From Novosphingobium sp. SG751A (GTDB lineage: Bacteria > Pseudomonadota > Alphaproteobacteria > Sphingomonadales > Sphingomonadaceae): a stretch of 64,000 nucleotides of DNA. The stretch lies in NCBI RefSeq assembly GCF_013149295.1, contig NZ_JABGCB010000003.1, forward strand, positions 58,631-122,630. Direction: 5' to 3'. This document shows, piece by piece, positions 28,094 through 41,496 of the stretch. Each line of letters opens with the position of its first letter. Positions within the stretch are counted from its first letter, which is position 1. The position numbers and the translations under genes are program-made. The notes beneath the pieces were generated by a model that saw only the letters and a list, made by a program, of their open reading frames with translations, made no database searches and was not told the origin of the DNA.

Positions 28094-29587
28094 TCAGTCA
28101 ATGGCAAAGGGCATATTCTGGAAACAGACCGGGCGCAGAAAGCGCGCCATGGCCAGCGTGCCGACCGAGGTGGTGCGCGTGTCGGACGTGGCGGGGAAGG
28201 GGCCGCCATGGACCATCGCGCGCGAGACTTCGACGCCGGTGGGCCATTCATTGGCGATCACGCGCCCGGCCTTGTCGGCCATGATCGGCAAGAGCGCCTG
28301 CGCCAGCGGCCAGTCGGCTTCGTCGCCGTGGAAACTGGCGGTCAATTGCCCCTCGAGCGAGGCGAGGACGGCGGCGAAATCATCGGGCGAGGCGCAGCGC
28401 ACCACCAAGCCCGAAACGCCGAACACTTCCTCACGCAGGGCCGGATCGGCGATGAAGCGGGCGGCATCGACGGCAAAGATTGCCGCGCCGCAGCGGTCCT
28501 CGGGCGCGTTCTGGCGCAGGATGGTGGTCACGCCTGCGTGTCCGTCCAGCGCGGCCACGCCATGATGATAGGCGCGGCAGATGCCGGGCGAGAGCATGAC
28601 CTGCGGCGCGGCGGCATCGAGCGCGGCGGCTGCCGCGCTCAGAAACGCATCAAGCTCGGGCCCTTCGACCGCCAGCAGCAGGCCGGGATTGGTGCAGAAC
28701 TGGCCCGCGCCCATCGACAGTGAGGCGGCATAGGCCCGCGCCAGCGCCCCCCCGCGCGCCGCCATTGCGGCGGGCAGCAGCAGGACCGGGTTGATGCTGC
28801 TCATTTCGGCATAGACCGGGATCGGCTCGGGCCGGGCCTGCGCCTGTGCGATCAGAGCAAGACCACCCGCGCGGCTGCCGGTAAATCCCACCGCCTTGAT
28901 GGCCGGATGGCCGACCAGCGCGGCGCCCAGCGCGCGATTGTTACCCGGAAGGAAGGAAAATACGCCTGCTGGAAAGCCGCTCTCGGCCACGGCCCGCGTC
29001 ACGGCGCGCGCGACATATTCGCCGGTGCCCGGATGCGCCGAGTGGCCCTTGACCACCACCGGGCAGCCCGCCGCCAGCGCCGAAGCGGTGTCGCCCCCGG
29101 CCACAGAAAAGGCGAGCGGGAAATTGGAGGCGCCAAACACCGCCACCGGCCCCACCGCCCGGTTGATCCGCCGCAACGAGGGGCGGGGCGGCACGCGGGC
29201 AAGGTCGGCCGGTTCGAACACTTCATCCTGCCAGTCAAAGCCGCGCAATTCGGCGGCGAACAGGCGCAACTGGTTGACGGTGCGCATCCGCTCGCCCTCC
29301 AGCCGGGCGCGGGGCAGGCCGGTTTCGCGCATGGCCGTTTCGATCAGCCCGTCGCCAAGGGAGAGAATTTGCGCCCCGATGGCTTCGAGCAGATCGGCGC
29401 GGGCCGCCGCATCGCGGGCAAAGGCGGGGGCGGCCTCTTGCGCGGCGGCGCAGGCGGCATCGACATGCTCGGGCGTGGCCACGCTGAAATCAGGGCCGAA
29501 AGCCTTGCCGCTGGCCGCGTCGATGGCGGAAAATCGGGTTTCGGTCTGAAGCGGCTTTCCTGCGATCAGAAGGCTTCCGTCAATCAT
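28094..29587 (-). CDS. 2-oxoglutarate semialdehyde (2,5-dioxovalerate) dehydrogenase
   Basis: A 497-residue aldehyde dehydrogenase that by family likeness oxidises 2-oxoglutarate semialdehyde to 2-oxoglutarate, the last step of non-phosphorylating glucarate, galactarate and pentose routes. Features are FGASNFPLAFSVAGGDTASA (cofactor and oxyanion Asn), KGHSAHPGTGE, GFTGSRAGG, the general base Glu261 in YAEMSSINP and the nucleophile Cys298 in GQFCTNPG. The SNFPLAFS and EMSSINP wording is typical of this subfamily rather than generic ALDHs. The kdgD-type dehydratase at 36734 makes its substrate, which supports the assignment. It lies downstream of the TonB receptor gene, separated by a terminator-like hairpin. 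Confidence 0.9.
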   Translation of the reverse strand: MIDGSLLIAGKPLQTETRFSAIDAASGKAFGPDFSVATPEHVDAACAAAQEAAPAFARDAAARADLLEAIGAQILSLGDGLIETAMRETGLPRARLEGERMRTVNQLRLFAAELRGFDWQDEVFEPADLARVPPRPSLRRINRAVGPVAVFGASNFPLAFSVAGGDTASALAAGCPVVVKGHSAHPGTGEYVARAVTRAVAESGFPAGVFSFLPGNNRALGAALVGHPAIKAVGFTGSRAGGLALIAQAQARPEPIPVYAEMSSINPVLLLPAAMAARGGALARAYAASLSMGAGQFCTNPGLLLAVEGPELDAFLSAAAAALDAAAPQVMLSPGICRAYHHGVAALDGHAGVTTILRQNAPEDRCGAAIFAVDAARFIADPALREEVFGVSGLVVRCASPDDFAAVLASLEGQLTASFHGDEADWPLAQALLPIMADKAGRVIANEWPTGVEVSRAMVHGGPFPATSDTRTTSVGTLAMARFLRPVCFQNMPFAID

Positions 29588-29676: not shown

Positions 29677-32445
29677 TTAGAAGGTGACCTTGGCCCCAAG
29701 GTTGAACTGGCGGCCGCTGTGGGTCAGCACGTTGAGGCGGTTGGTCGCATCGACATACTGATCGTTGAGCGCGTCGGTCAGGTTGATCATTTCAAGGCTG
29801 AACTTGATCCGCTCGATGGGCGCATAGGTGATCTGGGCGTCCACATTGATCGTGCGGTTGGTGCCGTTCCAGCTCTGGCCCTCGGTGCCGGGAACGGCGG
29901 TCAGATACTTGGAACGATAGGCGATTGAGCCGCGCACCGAGAACTTCTTGTCCTCGTAATAGAGCGTGCCATTGGCGGCATATTTCGACAGGCCCACCAG
30001 TGGCGCGGTGACCGAGGTGCTGCCATCGGCGCTGGTCAGGTACTGGATGTTCGACGACACATAGGTGAAGTTGCCCAGAACGCCGAAATTCTTGCCGATG
30101 CCGCGCAGGAAGCTGAAGGGCTGCTGCATGTTCACTTCAAAGCCGCGCAGCATGCCGCCGCTGGAATTGACCGGGGTGCTGGCGATGAACACGTCGCTGG
30201 CGACCGCCGTGGTGCCGGTCAGCAAGGATGCGGGCAGGCCGAGCGAGGAGAAGGGCACGGCGGTGCTGAGCGTCTGGGCAAAGCTGCTGATGTTCTTCTG
30301 GAAATAGGCGACCGAATAGATCGCCCCGCGCGCGGGGTAATATTCGACGGAGAGGTCCAGATTGGTCGATTCGGTCGGGCGCAGATCGGGGTTGCCCGCG
30401 CTGAAGGTGCGGCTGCCGCCCGAAACCGACAGGCTGCCACCCGGCGTGAGCGAGGCGATCCCGGCGCGCGCCAGCGTCTTGGCCGCGCCAAAGCGGACCA
30501 GCAATTGCCGGTTGATGTCATAGACCACATTGGCCGAGGGCAGCAGGCGGCTGTACGAACGGTTGGCCGTCACCAGATTGATCGTCGCGCCCTGGCTGGC
30601 ATAGCCGGTCGAGAATTGCTTGGTGTTGACATAGCGCAGGCCGATGTCGCCACGCAGCGGAATGTCGCGGTCGCCAAGGTTGAATTCACCCATGCCCCAG
30701 ACACCGGTGTCATCCTCGCGCACAGTGATGAAGGAACCGCGCGCAGTCGCATTTTCAATGCCGCCGGTGGCATAGGTCGGGTTGGTATAGATGCCATAGA
30801 GATTGGCAAAGGCGTTGAGATCGGGAACCACCCATGCCGTGGGCGTGCCCGCCGGAACCGCAAGGCCGCGGCCAAAGCCGCTGAACACTGTGGTGGCCGC
30901 CGCGATCTGCGAGGCATTGAGCGAATTGACCACGGTTTCGCCCGAAAGGCGGCGTTGCTCGGTCGAACCATAGGTGAAGCGGCGCCAGTCCAGACCCGCC
31001 TTGATCTTCAGGATATCATTGGCTTTCCATTCCAGCGCGCCCTTGGCGGTGCCGAAAGCATTGTCCACCGTCTGCGGGCGGATGCGCACTTCAGACGTGC
31101 CGCTGGTGAAGGAGAAATTGGCCGGATTGGTGATGTCCACGCCGGGACGGATGGTAGGGAAACGGGTCGAGAAATCGTAGAAGAAATTGCCCGTATTGGC
31201 CGCGTCCAGCGTCACCGTGGTCTGGATCGGATTGGTGAAGGCGGATTTGGAATAGCCGACAAGGCCGGTGAACTTCAGCCGGTCCGAGAAGGAATGTTCC
31301 AGATTGGCGGTCAGGTTGTAGAAGGTGGTGCGCAGCACGTCATAGCGGGCCTGGGTGCGCAGATCGACATTGTCGAACGTGCCCGAAATCAGGTTGCCAT
31401 TGCCATCGACGGTGCCGTTGCGGATGATCGTCTGGGGCTTGCCGGTGCCCGAGCGGCTGAAGCTGATTGCCTGAAACTGGCTTTCGGCGCGGGTGCCGTC
31501 GAGATAGGAGAACAGCCCGTCGAGCGTCAGCAGCGTGCGATCACCCGGCCGCCACTGGATCGAGGCCGAGGCGCCAAGGCGCTTCTGGTTGATGTCATAG
31601 CTGACCAGACCGGGGATGCGCGGGTGATACATATTGGCGCTGTTGATCTGGGCCAGATTGTAGCCCGGCACGGTCGAGGCGGCGTTGAAGCCGCCGTTGA
31701 AGCCGCCATAGGTCCAGCGGGTGATGTTGGCGCCTTCTTCCTTCAGACGGCGCGCTTCATAGGAGAAGCTCATCAGCACGCCAAAGGTCTGATCATCATT
31801 GCTCTTGGTGACCAAGGCCGAGAGGCGCGGCGTGGTCTTGCGCGAGAGGTCATTATAGCTGCCCTGCGCCGAGAAGGTGGCTGTGGGTTTTTTGAAATCG
31901 AAGGGGCGGGCGGTCTGCATATCGACCGTGGCGCCCAGCGAGCCTTCCTCAACGTCCGCGCTGGCGCTCTTGCGCACGGCCAGCGAGTTGAACAGGTCCG
32001 AGGAGAAGATGTTGAAGTCAAATCCGCGACCGCGGTTGACGCCGCCCGAATTGTCGGTGCCGCCGGTGGTGCCGATGGCCTCCATGCCGTTGATGCGCAC
32101 GCGGGTGTAATCGGCGCCAAGGCCGCGCACCGAGACGTTGCGGCCTTCGCCATTCACGCGGTTGATGGCCACGCCCGGAATGCGCTGGAGCGATTCGGCC
32201 AGATTGAGGTCGGGGAATTCGGCAATATCCTCGGCCTTGATGACATCGACGGCGGCGGCGGTTGCCTTTTTCACGCCCAGCGCGCTGTTCAGGCTGGCAC
32301 GGAAACCGGTGACAACAATTTCGGGTGCAGCCGGCTCTTTGGCGATGGATGCGGGTGCTTCCTGCGCCACGGCGGCGGGCGCGGCGATAATGGCGCTGGT
32401 GACAAGCAGGGCGGCCTTCGCGCCGCGGCGGATGGAATGGGCCAT
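29677..32445 (-). CDS. TonB-dependent outer-membrane receptor (Xanthomonas/Caulobacter type)
   Basis: A 922-residue outer-membrane transporter. The start at 32445 gives MAHSIRRGAKAALLV, with GAGGGGA seven bases upstream and a signal peptide ending at AVAQ. A TonB-box-like PEIVVTGF follows, then the plug (LAESLQRIPGVAINRVNGEG and NVSVRGLGADYTRVRINGME). The C-terminus is the 22-strand barrel, closing with RQFNLGAKVTF and a terminal Phe. This receptor class usually imports saccharides or sugar-acid oligomers. Its neighbours (MFS carrier, sugar-acid enzymes) fit that. Energy would come from the tonB-exbBD genes at 48.8-51.4 kb. It is divergent from the carrier gene. Confidence 0.95.
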   Translation of the reverse strand: MAHSIRRGAKAALLVTSAIIAAPAAVAQEAPASIAKEPAAPEIVVTGFRASLNSALGVKKATAAAVDVIKAEDIAEFPDLNLAESLQRIPGVAINRVNGEGRNVSVRGLGADYTRVRINGMEAIGTTGGTDNSGGVNRGRGFDFNIFSSDLFNSLAVRKSASADVEEGSLGATVDMQTARPFDFKKPTATFSAQGSYNDLSRKTTPRLSALVTKSNDDQTFGVLMSFSYEARRLKEEGANITRWTYGGFNGGFNAASTVPGYNLAQINSANMYHPRIPGLVSYDINQKRLGASASIQWRPGDRTLLTLDGLFSYLDGTRAESQFQAISFSRSGTGKPQTIIRNGTVDGNGNLISGTFDNVDLRTQARYDVLRTTFYNLTANLEHSFSDRLKFTGLVGYSKSAFTNPIQTTVTLDAANTGNFFYDFSTRFPTIRPGVDITNPANFSFTSGTSEVRIRPQTVDNAFGTAKGALEWKANDILKIKAGLDWRRFTYGSTEQRRLSGETVVNSLNASQIAAATTVFSGFGRGLAVPAGTPTAWVVPDLNAFANLYGIYTNPTYATGGIENATARGSFITVREDDTGVWGMGEFNLGDRDIPLRGDIGLRYVNTKQFSTGYASQGATINLVTANRSYSRLLPSANVVYDINRQLLVRFGAAKTLARAGIASLTPGGSLSVSGGSRTFSAGNPDLRPTESTNLDLSVEYYPARGAIYSVAYFQKNISSFAQTLSTAVPFSSLGLPASLLTGTTAVASDVFIASTPVNSSGGMLRGFEVNMQQPFSFLRGIGKNFGVLGNFTYVSSNIQYLTSADGSTSVTAPLVGLSKYAANGTLYYEDKKFSVRGSIAYRSKYLTAVPGTEGQSWNGTNRTINVDAQITYAPIERIKFSLEMINLTDALNDQYVDATNRLNVLTHSGRQFNLGAKVTF

Positions 32446-32528
32446 CAGTAATCCCCTCAAATTCCCATACCGGTCAGGATTGCCGGATTGAGCGTGGGAT
32501 AGACCAGAGGGGCGCAAAAACGCCAACC

Positions 32529-32557
32529 TGATTCCGGCATCAATCATTGCCGGATCA
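32529..32557. promoter_or_regulatory. Imperfect dyad between the divergent receptor and carrier genes
   Basis: TGATTCCGGCA (32529-32539) and TGCCGGATCA (32548-32557) form an inverted repeat with one extra base. ATTGCCGGAT also occurs at 32477-32486. Its central place in the 251-bp divergent region makes it a candidate operator, perhaps for the nearby LysR protein. Not proven. Confidence 0.4.
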
Positions 32558-32696
32558 GCACTGATTGCCCCGCAATCGTTATATTTAATTCCCATCATGC
32601 CGAAATTTGGCTGGATCATCGCGTGATTTGCCTTGGACGATTTTGCCCGTTACGCCTATCGAAACAGGGTCAAAAAAGACTATCCGGAGAGACATG

Positions 32697-34013
32697 ATGC
32701 ACGGCCCGGGCGCCCAGATTCCCACAAGAACGCGCTATAAAATCATCGCGCTGATCTTCCTTGTGACCACGCTTAACTATGCGGATCGGGCCACTTTTTC
32801 CATCGCGGGCGGCGCGGCGGCCAAGGAATTATCGCTGACACCGGTGGCAACTGGATACGTGCTTTCGGCCTTTGCATGGGCCTATGCGCTGGCGCAGATT
32901 CCGGGCGGCGCATTGCTGGATCGTTTCGGAACCAAGCGGATTTACACCATCGCCATCGCCATTTGGTCGGTGCTGACCGCCGCGCAGGCTTTGGTCGGCG
33001 TGGTGCCGGGCGTTTCGGCGGTGGCGGCGCTGTTCAGCTTGCGCTTTCTGGTTGGGTTGGCCGAGGCGCCGTCTTTTCCCGGCAATGCGCGGCTGGTGGC
33101 GGCATGGTTTCCCGGCGCCGAGCGCGGCACCGCCTCGGCCATTTTCAACAGCGCGCAATATTTCGCGCTGGTGGCCTTCGCGCCCGTCATGGGCTGGATG
33201 GTCCATGCCTATGGCTGGCGCTCGGTGTTCTGGATGATGGGCGTGGTGGGGGTGATCGCCGCGCTGATTTTTGCCAAGATGATCCATGGGCCGGATCGCC
33301 ACCCGGGCGTCAATGCGGCTGAGCTGGACCTCATCCGCGAAGGCGGCGGCCAGATCGCGCTGGAGAGCAGCAGCGGGCAATCACTGGCTTTCAACTGGGC
33401 CAATATCAAGCCTCTGCTGGCCAACCGCATGATGCTGGGCATCTATATCGGGCAATACAGCATCAATGTGCTGACCTATTTCTTTGTCACATGGTTTCCG
33501 ATCTATCTGGTGAAAGAACGTGGCCTGTCGATTACGCAGGCCGGCTTTGCCGCCGCTCTGCCCGCGATCTGCGGCTTTGGCGGGGGATTGGTCGGGGGCG
33601 TGATCTCCGACCGCATCCTCAAACGCAGCGGCAGTCTGGATCAGGCGCGCAAGATGCCTTTGGTGTTCGGCATGGTGCTGGCTTCCAGCATTCTGGGCTG
33701 CGTCTGGCTGGACAGTCAGGCGGCGGTGCTGGGGGTGATGGCGCTGGCCTTTTTCGGCAAGGGGGTGGCCTCGCTCGGTTGGGCGGTGATGGCGGACGTG
33801 GCGCCCAAACGGCTGGCGGGGCTGTCGAGCGGGGTGTTCAACATGTTTGGCAATGCGGCGGGCATCGTGACGCCGATTGTGGTGGGCTATATCGTGGGGG
33901 CGACCGGGTCGTTCGATCTGGCGCTGTTGTTTGTGGCGGCGCATTGCGTGCTGACCATTCTGGCTTTTACGGTGATCGTCGGGCCGATCCGCCGTCTGGA
34001 GATTGGGGCATGA
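32697..34013 (+). CDS. MFS transporter, anion:cation symporter (ACS) family
   Basis: A 438-residue carrier with twelve predicted helices. Of the ATGs at 32694 and 32697 the second is better spaced (six bases) from GGAGA. ACS hallmarks are TTLNYADRATFSIAG in helix 1, GGALLDRFGTKR in loop 2-3 and the FLVGLAEAPSFPGNARLVAA stretch, as in glucarate, galactarate and galactonate carriers (GudP, GarP, DgoT). It probably imports a sugar acid by proton symport. The next gene, coding the Tat-exported protein, overlaps its stop by 4 bp, so the two are coupled. It is divergent from the TonB receptor gene. Confidence 0.93.
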   Translation: MHGPGAQIPTRTRYKIIALIFLVTTLNYADRATFSIAGGAAAKELSLTPVATGYVLSAFAWAYALAQIPGGALLDRFGTKRIYTIAIAIWSVLTAAQALVGVVPGVSAVAALFSLRFLVGLAEAPSFPGNARLVAAWFPGAERGTASAIFNSAQYFALVAFAPVMGWMVHAYGWRSVFWMMGVVGVIAALIFAKMIHGPDRHPGVNAAELDLIREGGGQIALESSSGQSLAFNWANIKPLLANRMMLGIYIGQYSINVLTYFFVTWFPIYLVKERGLSITQAGFAAALPAICGFGGGLVGGVISDRILKRSGSLDQARKMPLVFGMVLASSILGCVWLDSQAAVLGVMALAFFGKGVASLGWAVMADVAPKRLAGLSSGVFNMFGNAAGIVTPIVVGYIVGATGSFDLALLFVAAHCVLTILAFTVIVGPIRRLEIGA

Positions 34014-35830
34014 AGATGGATCGTCGTCAGTTGCTGGCCGGGGCCGCAGCGCTTGCCGCCAGCCCCGCCATGGCCGCAACCGCCGCGCCTTTGCGCATCA
34101 CCAGCCCGATGGCGGTCCCTCGCTGGGCAAGGTTGCAGCGGCAGTTGCTGGCCGCCCATACGCAGGCGTGCAAAGATTTTTACGCCACCTATGTCGATGC
34201 GCAGGACCATCTGAAATGCTTTGAACGCTGGGGCGCCAATGACGGGCCGGACGATGCGGCCGAGGCGACCAATGACTGGGTGCTGCTGCATGCCTTGGGC
34301 GCGGATGACAGCCTGCTGACCATGGCGCAAAAGTTCTGGGAAGGGCATTTGCGCCAGTACACCGGCATTCAGACCCGCGAGGTGCCGATTGCCCGCCAAG
34401 GCATGTATTACCGCGAATTCCCGGTCCAGATGGATTGGCAGCACAATTCCGAAGGGCTTTCGACGTTCAACGTGATGGGCCTGTCGGCGCCGCGCGATCC
34501 ACGCCTGCTGCTGCGCACGCGGCGCTTTGCCGATTTCTATACGGGCGCGGATAAAACGGTCGGCAATTATGACCCGCAGCACCGCGTCATCCGCTCGATC
34601 CTGAACGGCAGCCGGGGGCCGATGCTGCGCAAGGCAACGCCGCTCGACTGGGCGGGCGATCCGTTTGACGCTGGCCGCTTTCATCTGGAGCATGGCGAGG
34701 ACAGCTATGAGCAGTTTCTGCGCCATTATGATGAATATGATGACGTGGCCTGGGATACGCCGCTCAATCTGCAATCGACCACCTTGGGCCTCAATGCCTA
34801 TGCTCTGGGCGCGGGGGAACGTTTCCGCCGCTGGGTTCTGGATTACACCGATGCGTGGATGGAGCGGGCCAAGGCCAATGGCGGCATCTTTCCCAGCAAG
34901 GTCGGCCATGACGGCAAGGCGGCGGCGGATTGGTGGGGCGGCACCTATGGCTGGAATTTCGCGCCCATGGTGCCCCAGACCGGCGTGCGCGAAGGTCGCA
35001 ACCGCGTGCCCCGCGCGATCACGGCCTTCTTCAACGCGCTGCTGCTGACGGGGGATCGCGAATATCTCCATGTCTGGCGGCGTCAGAATGCGATCATCAA
35101 TGTGCAGGCCCGCATGGTGGACGGCAGGATGCAGACGCCCACCTTGTTCGGCCCCGAAGGCTGGCATGGCTGGAAGGCTGGCCCCTATCGTCAGGGTGCG
35201 TTTGAAATCTGGTATGCCACGCAAGACCCTCAAGACCGCGCGGCGGCGGGCAGCGATCCGTGGATCAGCTTTCTTGAAGGCGCCAACCCCGCCTATCCCG
35301 AGGCCGCTTTGGAGGCCGATCTGGCCCGATTGAGCAAGCGCGACGCGGCAAGGCGGGCGGATCATACCACGCCCGACAGCCGCCTTGCCGACTGGACGCT
35401 GGACTTCAACCCGGCCAGCGCCAAGGCTTTGGTGCAATTGACCACGGGGGGGCTGCATATTGCCCGGCCTACTTGGAATGCCGACAGTCCGCCGCAGGGC
35501 GGGGTCACGCTGCATTGCCGGTTGCGCTATTTTGATCCGGCGCGACGGCGGGCGGGATTGCCAACGGATGTGGCGGCGCTGGTCCATTCACTGGGCGATA
35601 CGCAGACGCAGCTTAGCCTTGTGAACACCGGCGACAAACCGCGCCGCGTGATCGTGCAGGGCGGGGCCTATGGTGAACACCGGATCGAGAGCGTGGAGAT
35701 TGAGGGGCGCAAGCATCCCGTTGGCGCGCGCCATTTCACGCTGGATCTGGCGCCGGGCGCCGGGGCGCGGCTGGTGCTGGGCATGAAGCGTTATGCCAAT
35801 CGGCCCAGTCTGGCGTTTCCTTGGACCTAA
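34010..35830 (+). CDS. Tat-exported protein of unknown function in the sugar-acid locus
   Basis: A 606-residue protein whose ATG overlaps the carrier stop by 4 bp. The N-terminus MKMDRRQLLAGAAALAASPA is a twin-arginine signal with a cleavage region near AMAATA. The mature part looks all-helical for about 400 residues with many aromatic and acidic pairs (ERWGANDGPDDAAEATNDWV, DWWGGTYGWNF), like an (alpha/alpha) toroid of sugar-acting enzymes. It ends in a beta-rich region (residues ~460-600, VTLHCRLRYFDP). I do not recognise a named family. Tat export plus coupling to the ACS carrier suggest a periplasmic enzyme or binding protein acting on the imported compound. Function is inference only. 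Confidence 0.8.
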   Translation: MKMDRRQLLAGAAALAASPAMAATAAPLRITSPMAVPRWARLQRQLLAAHTQACKDFYATYVDAQDHLKCFERWGANDGPDDAAEATNDWVLLHALGADDSLLTMAQKFWEGHLRQYTGIQTREVPIARQGMYYREFPVQMDWQHNSEGLSTFNVMGLSAPRDPRLLLRTRRFADFYTGADKTVGNYDPQHRVIRSILNGSRGPMLRKATPLDWAGDPFDAGRFHLEHGEDSYEQFLRHYDEYDDVAWDTPLNLQSTTLGLNAYALGAGERFRRWVLDYTDAWMERAKANGGIFPSKVGHDGKAAADWWGGTYGWNFAPMVPQTGVREGRNRVPRAITAFFNALLLTGDREYLHVWRRQNAIINVQARMVDGRMQTPTLFGPEGWHGWKAGPYRQGAFEIWYATQDPQDRAAAGSDPWISFLEGANPAYPEAALEADLARLSKRDAARRADHTTPDSRLADWTLDFNPASAKALVQLTTGGLHIARPTWNADSPPQGGVTLHCRLRYFDPARRRAGLPTDVAALVHSLGDTQTQLSLVNTGDKPRRVIVQGGAYGEHRIESVEIEGRKHPVGARHFTLDLAPGAGARLVLGMKRYANRPSLAFPWT

Positions 35831-36714
35831 CCGATTGCCTCGGCGCATAGGCGGCGCATCGGGTCGAGGGCGGGATTGGCATTGTCCCGCCGCCAGGCCA
35901 TGATCAGCTCGACCGGAAATTCGGGCTGGGTGACCATCTGGCGGAACTGCACATCGTCCGGGTGAAGCCCCAGCGCCGATTGCGGCACCACGGCGGCGGC
36001 CAGCCCTGCGCGCACAAGGCCCAGCATCGAATGGATCTGGGTCACATGCTGGACGAAATTTGGGGCCACCTGCGCCTCGTCAAACAGGCGCACCAGCATG
36101 TCGTGGAAATAGCCCGCGCCTTGCCTTGCATACATGATCAGCGGCTGGCCATCGAGATCGGCGGGCGTCAGGGTTGAAAGCCCCTGTCGCGGATCGCCCG
36201 AGGGCAGCGCGACCAGCAGCGGTTCGTGCAGGATGGTGAGCGTTTCAAATTCGGAGCGCACCACCGGGGGGCGGACAAAGCCGATGTCAATGAGGCCCGT
36301 GAGCAGCGCATCGGTCTGCTCGGTGCTGACCATTTCGCGCAGGTCCAGCTCGATATTGGGCAGGCTGGCGCGGGCTTGGGCCACGATCTGCGGCACCAGC
36401 GTATAGCCCGAAACGGCAGTAAAGCCGATGGCCACCTTGCCCGCATCGCCCTTGGCCACGCGCCGAGCCGATAGAGACGCGCTCTCGGCCAGCCGGACGA
36501 TGCGCCGCGCCTCGATCAGAAACACCCGGCCCGCAGGCGTCAGCGACACCGTGCGGCTGGTGCGTTCAAGCAGCGTCACATCCAGAATGCGTTCGAGCAA
36601 CTGGATCTGACGGCTGAGCGGGGACTGCGTCATGTTGAGCCGCTGGGCCGCGCGGCCGAAGTGGAGTTCTTCGGCCGCCGCGACGAAGCAGCGAAGCTGG
36701 CTGAGTTCGAACAT
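35827..36714 (-). CDS. LysR-family transcriptional regulator
   Basis: A 295-residue LysR regulator. The start at 36714 gives MFELSQLRCFVAAAEELHFG, the usual N-terminus of the winged helix; further upstream codons are not protein-like. The recognition helix lies in RAAQRLNMTQSPLSRQIQLL. The effector domain (about 90-290) includes GFVRPPVVRSEFETLTILHE and the LLVALPSGDPR segment, the type that binds small acids or aromatics. It lies 19 bases after kdgD on the same strand, so it is part of that transcript. Its stop overlaps the stop of the convergent Tat-protein gene by 4 bp. It likely controls the surrounding sugar-acid genes. Confidence 0.92.
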   Translation of the reverse strand: MFELSQLRCFVAAAEELHFGRAAQRLNMTQSPLSRQIQLLERILDVTLLERTSRTVSLTPAGRVFLIEARRIVRLAESASLSARRVAKGDAGKVAIGFTAVSGYTLVPQIVAQARASLPNIELDLREMVSTEQTDALLTGLIDIGFVRPPVVRSEFETLTILHEPLLVALPSGDPRQGLSTLTPADLDGQPLIMYARQGAGYFHDMLVRLFDEAQVAPNFVQHVTQIHSMLGLVRAGLAAAVVPQSALGLHPDDVQFRQMVTQPEFPVELIMAWRRDNANPALDPMRRLCAEAIG

Positions 36715-36733
36715 GGAACCCAGCCTAGCGTTT

Positions 36734-37666
36734 TCAGGCAGGAAGCGGGAGAGCATAAGGCGCGACTTTTTCGATAAGCGCGGCAAGCTGCGCATCTTCT
36801 GCCGCCGACAGATCGGTCAGCGGGCTGCGCACCGGTCCTGCATCGCGCCCGATCACCCGGCAACCGGCCTTGACGATCGAGACCGCATAGCCGCGCCCCT
36901 GATTGCGCAGGGCGATATAGGGCAGCACGAAATCGCGCAGTTGCTGCTGCACATGGGCGTGGTTGCCCGCGCGCACGGCGTTGTAGAATTCCAGCGCCCA
37001 TTGCGGCATGAAGTTGAAAATAGCCGAGGAATAGGTGGTCACGCCCATGGTCAGATAGGGCGTGGCAAAGGTTTCCGCCGTGGGCAGTCCGCCGATATAG
37101 GTCAGCCGGTCGCCCATGCGGGCATAGATGCGCGCCATCAGCTCGATATCGCCCACGCCGTCCTTATAGCCCACCAGATTGGCGTTGCGTTCGCACAGGC
37201 CCGCCAGCGTTTCATCATCCACAATCGCATTGCCGCGATTATAGACGATCACGCCCAGCCCCGTCGCGCGGCACACGGCCTCGATATGGGCTGCCAAACC
37301 TTCCTGCTTGCCCCCCATCAGATAGGGCGGCAACAGCAGGATGCCATCGGCCCCTGAGCTTTCCGCCTTGCGCGCGATGTCCACCGCAATCGCCGTGCCA
37401 TAGCCGCAGCCCGAGATCACCGGCACATTGGCCTTGCGCTCGGCCACGGCGGCGCGCACGACCTGGGCCACCTCGTCGGGCGTCAGCGAGAAGAATTCGC
37501 CCGTGCCGCCCGCAGCAAACAGGCCGGAGAGGTCATGTTCGAGCATCCATGCGCAATGGGCGCGAAAGCGGGCTTCCTCAAATGCGCCATCAGCATCGAA
37601 ATGGGTGACCGGAAACGACAGCAGGCCTTCGCCCAGCCGTTGCGCCATCGAGACGGGATCGAACAT
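36734..37666 (-). CDS. kdgD: 5-dehydro-4-deoxyglucarate dehydratase
   Basis: A 310-residue member of the dihydrodipicolinate synthase/aldolase superfamily. It is assigned to KdgD, which dehydrates and decarboxylates 5-dehydro-4-deoxyglucarate to 2-oxoglutarate semialdehyde. Evidence: [14 protein letters not shown], the [16 protein letters not shown] signature, VIVYNRGNA with the catalytic Tyr142, and [10 protein letters not shown] with the Schiff-base Lys168. The product is the substrate of the dehydrogenase at 28094. L-2-keto-3-deoxyarabonate dehydratase is a related alternative, but GEFFSLTP favours KdgD. It is followed by the LysR gene and divergent from the cyanophycinase-like gene. Confidence 0.93.
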
Positions 37667-39405: not shown

Positions 39406-39465
39406 ACACTGGCAAAGGCGGGATTTAGCCGTTAACCCGGCGCGCAGATGAGCCGGGAGAATGCG

Positions 39466-41496
39466 ATGTTTGGGCCTTTACCATGGATGGCGGCGGGTTT
39501 GCTGGGGCTGGGCGCTCTGGCCAAGGTGGCGCTGGACCATGGTGAGCCGATCAATGCGCTTTGGCTGGTGGTGGCCTCGCTGGGCTGTTTTGCGGCCTCC
39601 TATCGCTTCTATGCGCGGTTTATCGGGGCAAAGGTGATGGGGCTGGACAGCGCGCGGGCCACGCCTGCGGTGCGGCGGCCCGATGGGCTGGACTATGTGG
39701 CCACCGACCGCAATGTGCTGTTCGGCCATCACTTTGCTGCGATTGCCGGGGCCGGACCGCTGGTCGGGCCGGTGTTGGCGGCGCAGATGGGTTATCTGCC
39801 CGGCAGCTTGTGGATCATCTTTGGCGTGGTGCTGGCGGGCGCGGTGCAGGATTTCCTTGTCCTGTGCATCTCGATGCGGCGCGATGGCAAATCCTTGGGC
39901 GAAATCATTCGCATGGAAATGGGCGAGGTGGCGGGCGGCATTGCGCTGCTGGGCACCTTCATGATTATGGTCATCATTCTGGCCGTGCTGGCGCTGATCG
40001 TGGTGAAGGCTCTGGCCGAAAGCCCTTGGGGCATGTTCACCGTGGCGGCCACGGTGCCGCTGGCGCTGGCGATGGGCGTCTATTCGCGCTGGATCCGTCC
40101 GGGCCGCGTGGGCGAGGTTTCGCTGCTGGGGCTGGTGGGGCTGCTGGCCGCGCTGGTCTTTGGGCAGGATGTGGCGCAATCGGCCTTCTGGGGGCCTTTG
40201 TTCACCTATACGCCGATCCAGATCTGCTGGATTCTGATCGTCTATGGCGCGATTGCCTCGCTTTTGCCGGTCTGGCTTTTGCTGGCGCCCCGCGATTATC
40301 TTTCGACGTTTCTGAAGATCGGCACGATCATCGCGCTGGCCATCGGCATTCTGATCATGGCGCCTGCGCTCAAAATGCCCGCGCTGACGCAATTTGTGAA
40401 CGGCGGCGGGCCGGTGTGGTCGGGCGGGCTGTTTCCGTTTCTGTTCATCACCATCGCCTGCGGGGCGGTGTCGGGTTTCCATGCGCTGATCGCCAGCGGC
40501 ACCACGCCCAAGCTGATCGCCAGCGAGGCGGACGCTCCCTTCATCGGCTATGGCGCGATGCTGGCCGAGGCGTTCGTGGCGATCATGGCGCTGGTGGGCG
40601 CCTCGATCATCGAGCCGGGCATCTATTTCACCATGAACAGCCCCGCCGCGCTGATCGGCACCACGCCCGAAAGTGCAGCCGCGGCGGTGTCGGCCATGGG
40701 CTTTGCCATCACGCCCGAGGCCATCGTGCAATTGACCAAGGATATTGGCGAGCACACGATCCTCTCGCGCACCGGCGGCGCGCCCACGCTTGCCGTGGCG
40801 ATGGCGCAGATTTTCAGCCACGTGGTCGGCGGGGCGGCGATGAAGGCCTTCTGGTATCACTTCGCCATTCTGTTCGAGGCTTTGTTCATCCTGACCGCCG
40901 TGGACGCGGGCACGCGGGCGGGGCGGTTCATGGTGCAGGATCTGCTGGCCCGCGCGGTGCCGGGGTTCGCGCGGTTCGGCGGCATGGCGCAGGGGCTGAT
41001 CGGCACGGGCATCTGTGTGGCGGCCTGGGGCTTCTTCCTGCATCAGGGCGTAACCGATCCGCTGGGCGGGGTGAACACGCTCTGGCCGGTGTTTGGCATT
41101 TCGAACCAGATGCTGGCGGCAACGGCCCTGATGCTGGCCACCGCCGTGCTGTTCCGCATGAAGCAGCAGCGTTACGCATGGGTCTCGGCGCTGCCGACCG
41201 TGTGGCTGCTGATCTGCACGCTTTCGGCCGGGTGGCTCAAACTGTTTTCCGATGACCCCAAGGTGGGATTTTTGTCGCATGCGGCGAAATTTTCCGCCGC
41301 CGCCGCGCAGGGCAAGCTGCTGGCCCCGGCCAAGAGCATGGCGCAGATGGAGCGAATCATCTTCAACGACCGCGTTGACGCCCTGCTTTGCGGGTTCTTT
41401 ATGGTAGTGGTGCTGGCCGTGCTGGCGGCGGCGGTGCGGACTTGTCTGGCGGCCATGCGCAGCGAAGTACCCACAGTGCGCGAGGTGACGGCGTGA
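39466..41496 (+). CDS. cstA: Carbon starvation protein CstA (pyruvate/peptide transporter)
   Basis: A CstA-family membrane protein of 676 residues from ATG 39466, which has GGGAGA five bases upstream; an earlier ATG at 39448 lacks a ribosome site. It has about sixteen membrane segments. Characteristic stretches are TDRNVLFGHHFAAIAGAGPL, VGPVLAAQMGYLPGSLWI, SGTTPKLIASEADAPFIGYG and VDAGTRAGRFMVQD. E. coli homologues import pyruvate and perhaps peptides during carbon limitation. It is followed by ybdD with a GTGA overlap, its usual partner. Confidence 0.95.
   Translation: MFGPLPWMAAGLLGLGALAKVALDHGEPINALWLVVASLGCFAASYRFYARFIGAKVMGLDSARATPAVRRPDGLDYVATDRNVLFGHHFAAIAGAGPLVGPVLAAQMGYLPGSLWIIFGVVLAGAVQDFLVLCISMRRDGKSLGEIIRMEMGEVAGGIALLGTFMIMVIILAVLALIVVKALAESPWGMFTVAATVPLALAMGVYSRWIRPGRVGEVSLLGLVGLLAALVFGQDVAQSAFWGPLFTYTPIQICWILIVYGAIASLLPVWLLLAPRDYLSTFLKIGTIIALAIGILIMAPALKMPALTQFVNGGGPVWSGGLFPFLFITIACGAVSGFHALIASGTTPKLIASEADAPFIGYGAMLAEAFVAIMALVGASIIEPGIYFTMNSPAALIGTTPESAAAAVSAMGFAITPEAIVQLTKDIGEHTILSRTGGAPTLAVAMAQIFSHVVGGAAMKAFWYHFAILFEALFILTAVDAGTRAGRFMVQDLLARAVPGFARFGGMAQGLIGTGICVAAWGFFLHQGVTDPLGGVNTLWPVFGISNQMLAATALMLATAVLFRMKQQRYAWVSALPTVWLLICTLSAGWLKLFSDDPKVGFLSHAAKFSAAAAQGKLLAPAKSMAQMERIIFNDRVDALLCGFFMVVVLAVLAAAVRTCLAAMRSEVPTVREVTA

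Follow-up and report, generated by a model that had tools for sequence, protein, structure and literature searches.

A PF26099-tagged protein family with a predicted (alpha/alpha) toroid, associated by genomic context with pectin and uronate genes in bacteria and haloarchaea

The stretch analysed here (hereafter the window) consists of 64,000 nucleotides of contig NZ_JABGCB010000003.1 of Novosphingobium sp. SG751A, and its subject is a gene at 34010..35830 on the plus strand: an in-frame ORF coding for a 606 amino acid protein of a PF26099-tagged family, predicted to consist of an (alpha/alpha) toroid and a C-terminal beta domain. The genome holds a single copy. The preceding gene (32697..34013, +) encodes a major facilitator superfamily (MFS) carrier of the D-galactonate-transporter (ACS) type (TIGR00893, 403 bits, cut-off 395). 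Its stop codon TGA occupies 34011–34013 and the gene's ATG 34010–34012, so that start and stop share the 4-bp sequence ATGA (34010..34013, +), with GGAG upstream; the ORF, the carrier type and the overlap are all as the initial annotation had them. A divergent TonB-dependent receptor (29677..32619, −; TIGR01782, 651 bits, cut-off 310), also expected at the locus, is followed by a candidate 2,5-dioxopentanoate dehydrogenase (28094..29587, −; profile matches). On the other side are a LysR regulator convergent with the gene (35827..36795, −; profile match), whose true start, judging from its homologues, is likely to be MFELSQ at about 36714, and KdgD, 5-dehydro-4-deoxyglucarate dehydratase (36734..37666, −; TIGR03249, 429 bits, cut-off 374). 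Two flanking enzymes had been named beforehand; KdgD stands, whereas the supposed 2-oxoglutarate semialdehyde dehydrogenase is safe only as an aldehyde dehydrogenase (best NCBIfam match 86 bits against a cut-off of 750), its specificity being without model support.

Searches with the gene product gave no family match in Pfam (limit E 10) beyond a sub-threshold TAT_signal, no match in NCBIfam and no significant relative among PDB sequences; in particular, none of the three returned a characterised cytoplasmic family, which would have spoken against an exported enzyme. A scan of viral contigs likewise gave no relative. In the protein database, at least 2712 homologues were found at E ≤ 0.001 among 7997 scored candidates, and PF26099 was the precomputed label on 120/120 among the matches listed (coverage 94–100%). 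With a haloarchaeal homologue as query 872 homologues were recovered, again with PF26099 on 120/120 among the matches listed. The protein shares full-length homology and conserved core motifs with this family, the label itself being read from the annotation of homologues. The idea that it belongs to no named family was thus nearly right: there is no family name, but there is an accession. Where homologues are named at all, they are nearly always 'hypothetical' or 'uncharacterized', and full-text literature searches found, among the papers listed, none naming PF26099 or five homologue identifiers, and none joining the locus or the pathway with the family.

Members of the family are known from both archaeal and bacterial genomes, and 90 of them fall into two deep branches of 46 and 44 sequences in a tree (midpoint-rooted, the position of the root being an assumption of the method). 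The N-terminus of the gene product, MKMDRRQLLAGAAALAASPAMA, resembles a signal for twin-arginine translocation (Tat), with RRQLL, a hydrophobic region and AMA; residues 1–22 (34010..34075, +) are the predicted signal peptide. The match to Pfam TAT_signal stayed under the cut-off (14.3 against 22.7 bits), so that the twin-arginine signal of the initial annotation holds as a Tat-like N-terminus only. An RR-x-hydrophobic motif was present in 33 of the 46 sequences of the gene's own branch, a lower bound because most of the remaining 13 rows start only at the match; two poribacterial rows have no signal. In the other branch the twin-arginine motif was seen in 1 of 44 sequences, and most proteins start ~13–14 residues ahead of a conserved PPxWA motif, leaving no space for a signal peptide. 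Export to the cell envelope or periplasm via Tat is therefore predicted, from sequence, for the gene product and its branch, but sequence support for the periplasmic location proposed earlier does not extend to the other one.

The AlphaFold2 model of the gene product (mean predicted local distance difference test score 93.8) comprises an (alpha/alpha) toroid (residues 38–480; 34121..35449, +) and a C-terminal beta domain (residues 505–594; 35522..35791, +), as anticipated from the all-helical middle and beta-rich end of the sequence. The toroid, which had been offered as a possibility, is seen in two confident predicted models, and fold searches (Foldseek and VIA) agree. The structural matches are distant to GH76, GH47, GH88/GH105 and sugar epimerases and close to none; a PL2 entry (2v8j) appears in the Foldseek list, and among the families listed no polysaccharide lyase (PL) or glycoside hydrolase (GH) family emerged as a close match. 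The alignment of the 90 sequences, spanning archaea and bacteria, has 37 invariant columns that are rich in acidic residues and tryptophan. They include D81, D82, E85, D142, H145, E148, D249, N253, W308, W315 and D409 in the toroid, and R514 and H557 in the beta domain.

The genome scan yielded at least 514 relatives, of which the best 80 loci were kept; with five plasmid loci and the window's own locus, 86 loci were examined. Homologues of the neighbouring genes were found in 66 (MFS), 59 (KdgD), 59 (LysR), 58 (TonB receptor) and 11 (aldehyde dehydrogenase) of them, and the order TonB receptor–MFS–gene–LysR–KdgD recurs in Sphingomonadaceae and Caulobacteraceae. An MFS homologue lies near the gene in 66/82 loci, in 64 cases upstream on the same strand and in 2 on the other strand. 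Among these 64, 39 overlap the gene (22 by 4 bp and 17 by 1 bp), 21 are separated from it by 0–30 bp and 4 by 95–101 bp; given this recurrence, the overlap is not a matter of chance. The gene is present in the homologous KdgD/MFS loci, its absence from which would have told against the initial interpretation, although a second KdgD locus in the genome of SG751A has no copy. Other partners are a right-handed beta-helix protein 3' of the gene in eight Caulobacter loci (one representative scanned), GH127 in one Brevundimonas locus, and an L-talarate/galactarate dehydratase above cut-off in L065 and L138; L065 also holds a relative of glucarate dehydratase, far below cut-off, of which L138 has a 94% identical copy.

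Six alphaproteobacterial loci (L074, L075, L078, L080, L081 and L083) form a separate group in which the gene has different surroundings: a cytochrome c precedes it in 6/6 (by clustering), an NHL-repeat protein follows directly or after one gene in 5/6, and a pyrroloquinoline quinone dehydrogenase is nearby in L074 and, by eye, also in L081 and L083. Periplasmic oxidation of the released sugar is possible in this group. Some single-locus observations are recorded here. In Novosphingobium rosa a relative of subclass B3 metallo-beta-lactamases, below curated cut-offs, directly precedes the gene (L065:8837-9871). A GDSL-type esterase directly follows it in two Caulobacter loci (L055:11793-12968, scanned; L057:11783-12952, by clustering), in line with an esterified substrate. 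In the window itself, 39448–41496 resembles, by eye only, a carbon-starvation (CstA-like) permease.

The link to pectin was assessed within the genus using 149 Novosphingobium genomes. The gene is present in 12 and GH28 in 13, with both in 8; GH28 thus occurs in 8/12 gene-bearing genomes and in 5/137 of the others (Fisher P = 1.1e-7). When GH28 was limited to E ≤ 1e-10, the counts fell to 6/12 and 3/137 (P = 5e-6), because two of the eight positives (G711 and G751) and two of the others were marginal. The control family GH10, over cut-off in 13 genomes, overlapped with the gene in 2 (P = 0.28). Copies of the gene in the genus fall into three identity groups (81–100%, 70–71% and 52–53%), and GH28 is absent from the 70–71% group. 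In one genome (G765), a relative of alpha-D-galacturonidase that exceeds the Pfam cut-off for GH28 but not the NCBIfam cut-off is located between KdgD and the gene. The locus of another (G671) includes GH43, KduI and KduD, the latter two above cut-off, and a further MFS carrier that stays below cut-off; that of G751 looks similar by eye. In SG751A itself, GH28, GH35, a PF07470 gene and arabinofuranosidase-like and GDSL-type genes share a locus on another contig (L135), and a UGL-like GH88 gene is found at a further one (L097). A second KdgD above cut-off, in a locus without a copy of the gene (L087, G000:C13:187000-206000), stands beside a glucarate dehydratase that is just short of its cut-off (807 against 829 bits). 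By eye, this second locus also codes for a Tat-like enolase-superfamily protein and a carboxylesterase-like protein.

In haloarchaea, whose members belong to the branch without export signals, the association takes another form. Of the 17 plasmid records in which the gene was detected, 12 are haloarchaeal. A homologue of the PelZ-like pectate lyase that adjoins the gene in Haloterrigena is present on 12/12 haloarchaeal gene-bearing plasmids (34–100% identical; that of Haladaptatus halobius covers only 59% of the query), and conversely the gene is present in 11/13 plasmid records holding at least 80% of this query. The best pectate lyase copy lies <1 kb from the gene in 4/12 (combined proximity P = 1.4e-4, with all copies per record allowed for). 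The Haloterrigena copy is Htur_4781; the 2011 genome paper lists its neighbours Htur_4783, 4785, 4786, 4789 and 4790 as pectin genes, and Htur_4781 does not appear in the available portion of its main text (PMC3102087). Ten haloarchaeal neighbourhoods were read: an annotated pectate lyase is within 8 kb in 6 and an ATP-binding cassette (ABC) importer in 4, and elsewhere enolase-superfamily dehydratases and NAD(P) oxidoreductases are found. Three of the oxidoreductases were scanned, and for those of L103 and L004 the best matches in the PDB are to uronate dehydrogenases. A 2,5-dioxovalerate dehydrogenase is above cut-off in L101 and L102, and KdgD-like proteins in L103 and L105 are far below cut-off. 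Outside the haloarchaea, PL11 and GH106 come after the gene in an acidobacterial locus that also has an apiosidase-family gene ~3 kb upstream, and actinobacterial copies in L005 and L006 are beside ABC sugar importers (translations judged by eye). Seven regions from acidobacterial multi-copy genomes (L127–L133) have mixed neighbours that gave no clear signal. The poribacterial metagenome-assembled genome of L077 (G442) holds seven family matches, one with an internal stop; four copies adjoin enolase-superfamily genes (by eye or family match) and several are near phytanoyl-CoA-dioxygenase-like genes (by eye).

Genes for pectin or uronate utilisation therefore share a locus or a genome with the gene, though not in every case, and in distant taxa pectinases and enzymes that oxidise uronates accompany the gene. 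The downstream functions that recur are those of the oxidative uronate route, i.e. uronate dehydrogenase-like proteins, galactarate/glucarate dehydratase, KdgD and 2,5-dioxovalerate dehydrogenase, although no single locus read has all four. The export signal goes with loci that import through a TonB receptor and an MFS carrier and is missing from the branch with some ABC loci, as would be expected if the enzyme is placed where its oligosaccharide substrate is. Taken with the oxidative theme, the simplest role to account for both is that of freeing hexuronic acid from pectic oligosaccharides, which narrows the sugar-acid link of the initial annotation to pectin-derived uronides. We accordingly give an about even chance to the proposal that the gene product is a carbohydrate-active enzyme of an unnamed family that acts in the periplasm on pectin-derived oligosaccharides and frees from them a hexuronic acid, D-galacturonic acid being the likeliest. 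An acidic oligosaccharide would enter through the TonB receptor; a uronic acid would be freed from it by the enzyme, which is probably an inverting exo-hydrolase with its catalytic carboxylates among D81, D82, E85, D142, E148 and D249; and the coupled MFS carrier would bring this acid inward. Oxidation and dehydration would then give 5-dehydro-4-deoxyglucarate, from which KdgD would form 2,5-dioxopentanoate en route to 2-oxoglutarate. In the other branch, which includes haloarchaea and Actinobacteria among others, this step may take place in the cytosol, with ABC importers, where such are near, bringing in the substrate. The broader proposal, that the protein founds a new carbohydrate-active family of archaea and bacteria, finishes oxidative pectin catabolism by freeing galacturonic acid and changes compartment along with the mode of uptake (periplasmic beside TonB/MFS, cytosolic beside ABC), we consider a little short of evenly balanced.

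Several observations weigh against this interpretation. The commonest extra partner, in 54/80 loci, is not a pectinase but a type-B carboxylesterase, usually between the gene and LysR (one representative scanned, the others by clustering), and many loci lack pectinases altogether. Within the genus, GH28 adjoins the gene in only one genome, its match is marginal (E ~2e-4) in G711 and G751, and 4/12 gene-bearing genomes lack it, including two with 70–71% identical copies (G719 and G740); the P-values are moreover optimistic since the genomes are related. In 4 of the ten haloarchaeal neighbourhoods the 8 kb around the gene contain no gene annotated as pectate lyase, and an ABC importer is that close in only 4. 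Both loci with a dioxovalerate dehydrogenase also hold a xylose dehydrogenase, whose pathway needs that enzyme too; the third oxidoreductase (L105) is of another type, and the best NCBIfam match of the uronate-dehydrogenase-like proteins, below cut-off, is Azf glucose-6-phosphate dehydrogenase. Actinobacterial and poribacterial loci point elsewhere, with a fuconolactonase-like protein far below cut-off and, by eye, GH29- and GH95-like proteins. In the model, conserved residues are just mildly enriched at inner-helix starts (11/78 positions, 50/563 overall), a signal too faint to be of use. The esterase partner, the loci without pectinases and the fucose-like neighbours in other phyla are the reason why confidence was held near one half.

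The carboxylesterase speaks for a different substrate: with it, the gene product might act on an esterified or conjugated aldaric acid, such as plant hydroxycinnamoyl glucarates or galactarates, while the MFS carrier would import glucarate or galactarate directly. The galactarate dehydratase and glucarate-dehydratase relative of L065 and L138 (by clustering also L069) fit such a scheme, as does the second locus of SG751A, where glucarate dehydratase, KdgD and an esterase-like gene are paired without this gene. At this place, however, there is no esterase in the window or in the loci most closely related to it (L007, L059 and L073), a toroid is not the expected fold of an esterase, and neither the haloarchaeal pectin loci nor the co-occurrence with GH28 would be explained, so that we judge this unlikely. 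Beta-elimination by a polysaccharide lyase, giving an unsaturated uronate that rearranges to 5-keto-4-deoxyuronate, also seems improbable to us. Several lyase families combine a toroid with a beta-sheet, 2v8j is among the fold matches, and KduI and KduD, which handle 5-keto-4-deoxyuronate, are present in the L137 locus; yet the recurrent core gene, KdgD, takes an aldarate-derived substrate and does not belong to the KduI/KduD route, the invariant residues are rich in Asp and Glu, and the haloarchaeal gene already has lyases alongside.

With KdgD and not KduI/KduD as the core partner, the product is more likely to be a saturated uronate and, we infer, the enzyme a hydrolase rather than a lyase. 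If the protein were an acid-sugar epimerase or isomerase comparable to the AGE-fold sulfoquinovose isomerase YihS, the AGE-fold enzymes among the best Foldseek and VIA matches would be accounted for, but AGE enzymes use barrel histidines, whereas only H145 and H557 are invariant here, the latter in the beta domain, and a periplasmic free-sugar isomerase ahead of import would be unusual; there is only a slim chance that this is the activity. Slimmer still appears that of a toroid that binds or acts like a chaperone and has no catalysis: no activity is known for any member, which also counts against release of a uronic acid, and homologue names are as uninformative as said above, but the 37 acid- and Trp-rich columns are kept across archaea, bacteria and two predicted compartments.

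New here are the co-occurrence of the gene with GH28 in the genus, the GH28 gene between KdgD and the gene in one relative, KduI and KduD in the locus of another, and, in haloarchaea, the branch free of export signals with a pectate lyase homologue on 12/12 plasmids and, in some loci, uronate-dehydrogenase-like and 2,5-dioxovalerate dehydrogenase genes. If uronic acid release is the function, a whole unassigned enzyme family with thousands of homologues would gain a testable role in pectin and uronate use, and the KdgD/MFS loci of sphingomonads and caulobacters would become predictable as uronide utilisation loci. The haloarchaeal pectin loci would gain a depolymerising step beside the lyases already reported in the Haloterrigena paper (PMC3102087).

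Among known enzymes, the AGE-fold proteins (YihS and cellobiose 2-epimerase) share the toroid and are among the best Foldseek matches (E ~1e-4), at TM-scores of only 0.19–0.36 on the query; of their paired catalytic histidines no pattern was seen among the invariant residues, where H145 and H557 are the only histidines. GH76 and GH47 mannosidases are similar in fold at 7–14% identity, with no Pfam family match for the gene product and no mannan-related neighbour noticed among the loci read; GH127 is likewise similar in fold at low identity, again with no Pfam match. The (alpha/alpha)6 barrel of GH88/GH105 is common to the model, but these enzymes have ~380 amino acids, compared with 606 and an extra C-terminal beta domain here, the gene product has no match to PF07470 (limit E 10), and SG751A has two separate PF07470 genes, one close to UGL. 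Membership of GH88/GH105 was rejected, hhalign with alignments of 4, 11 and 14 sequences giving probabilities of 1.5–4.6% over 33–48 columns in partly shifted registers, a further point against our interpretation. GH28 is a right-handed beta-helix family with no Pfam sequence match to the gene product; it stands in the gene's locus in one genome and in the same genome in others, and the product proposed here, free galacturonic acid, is that of the GH28 exo-alpha-galacturonidases.

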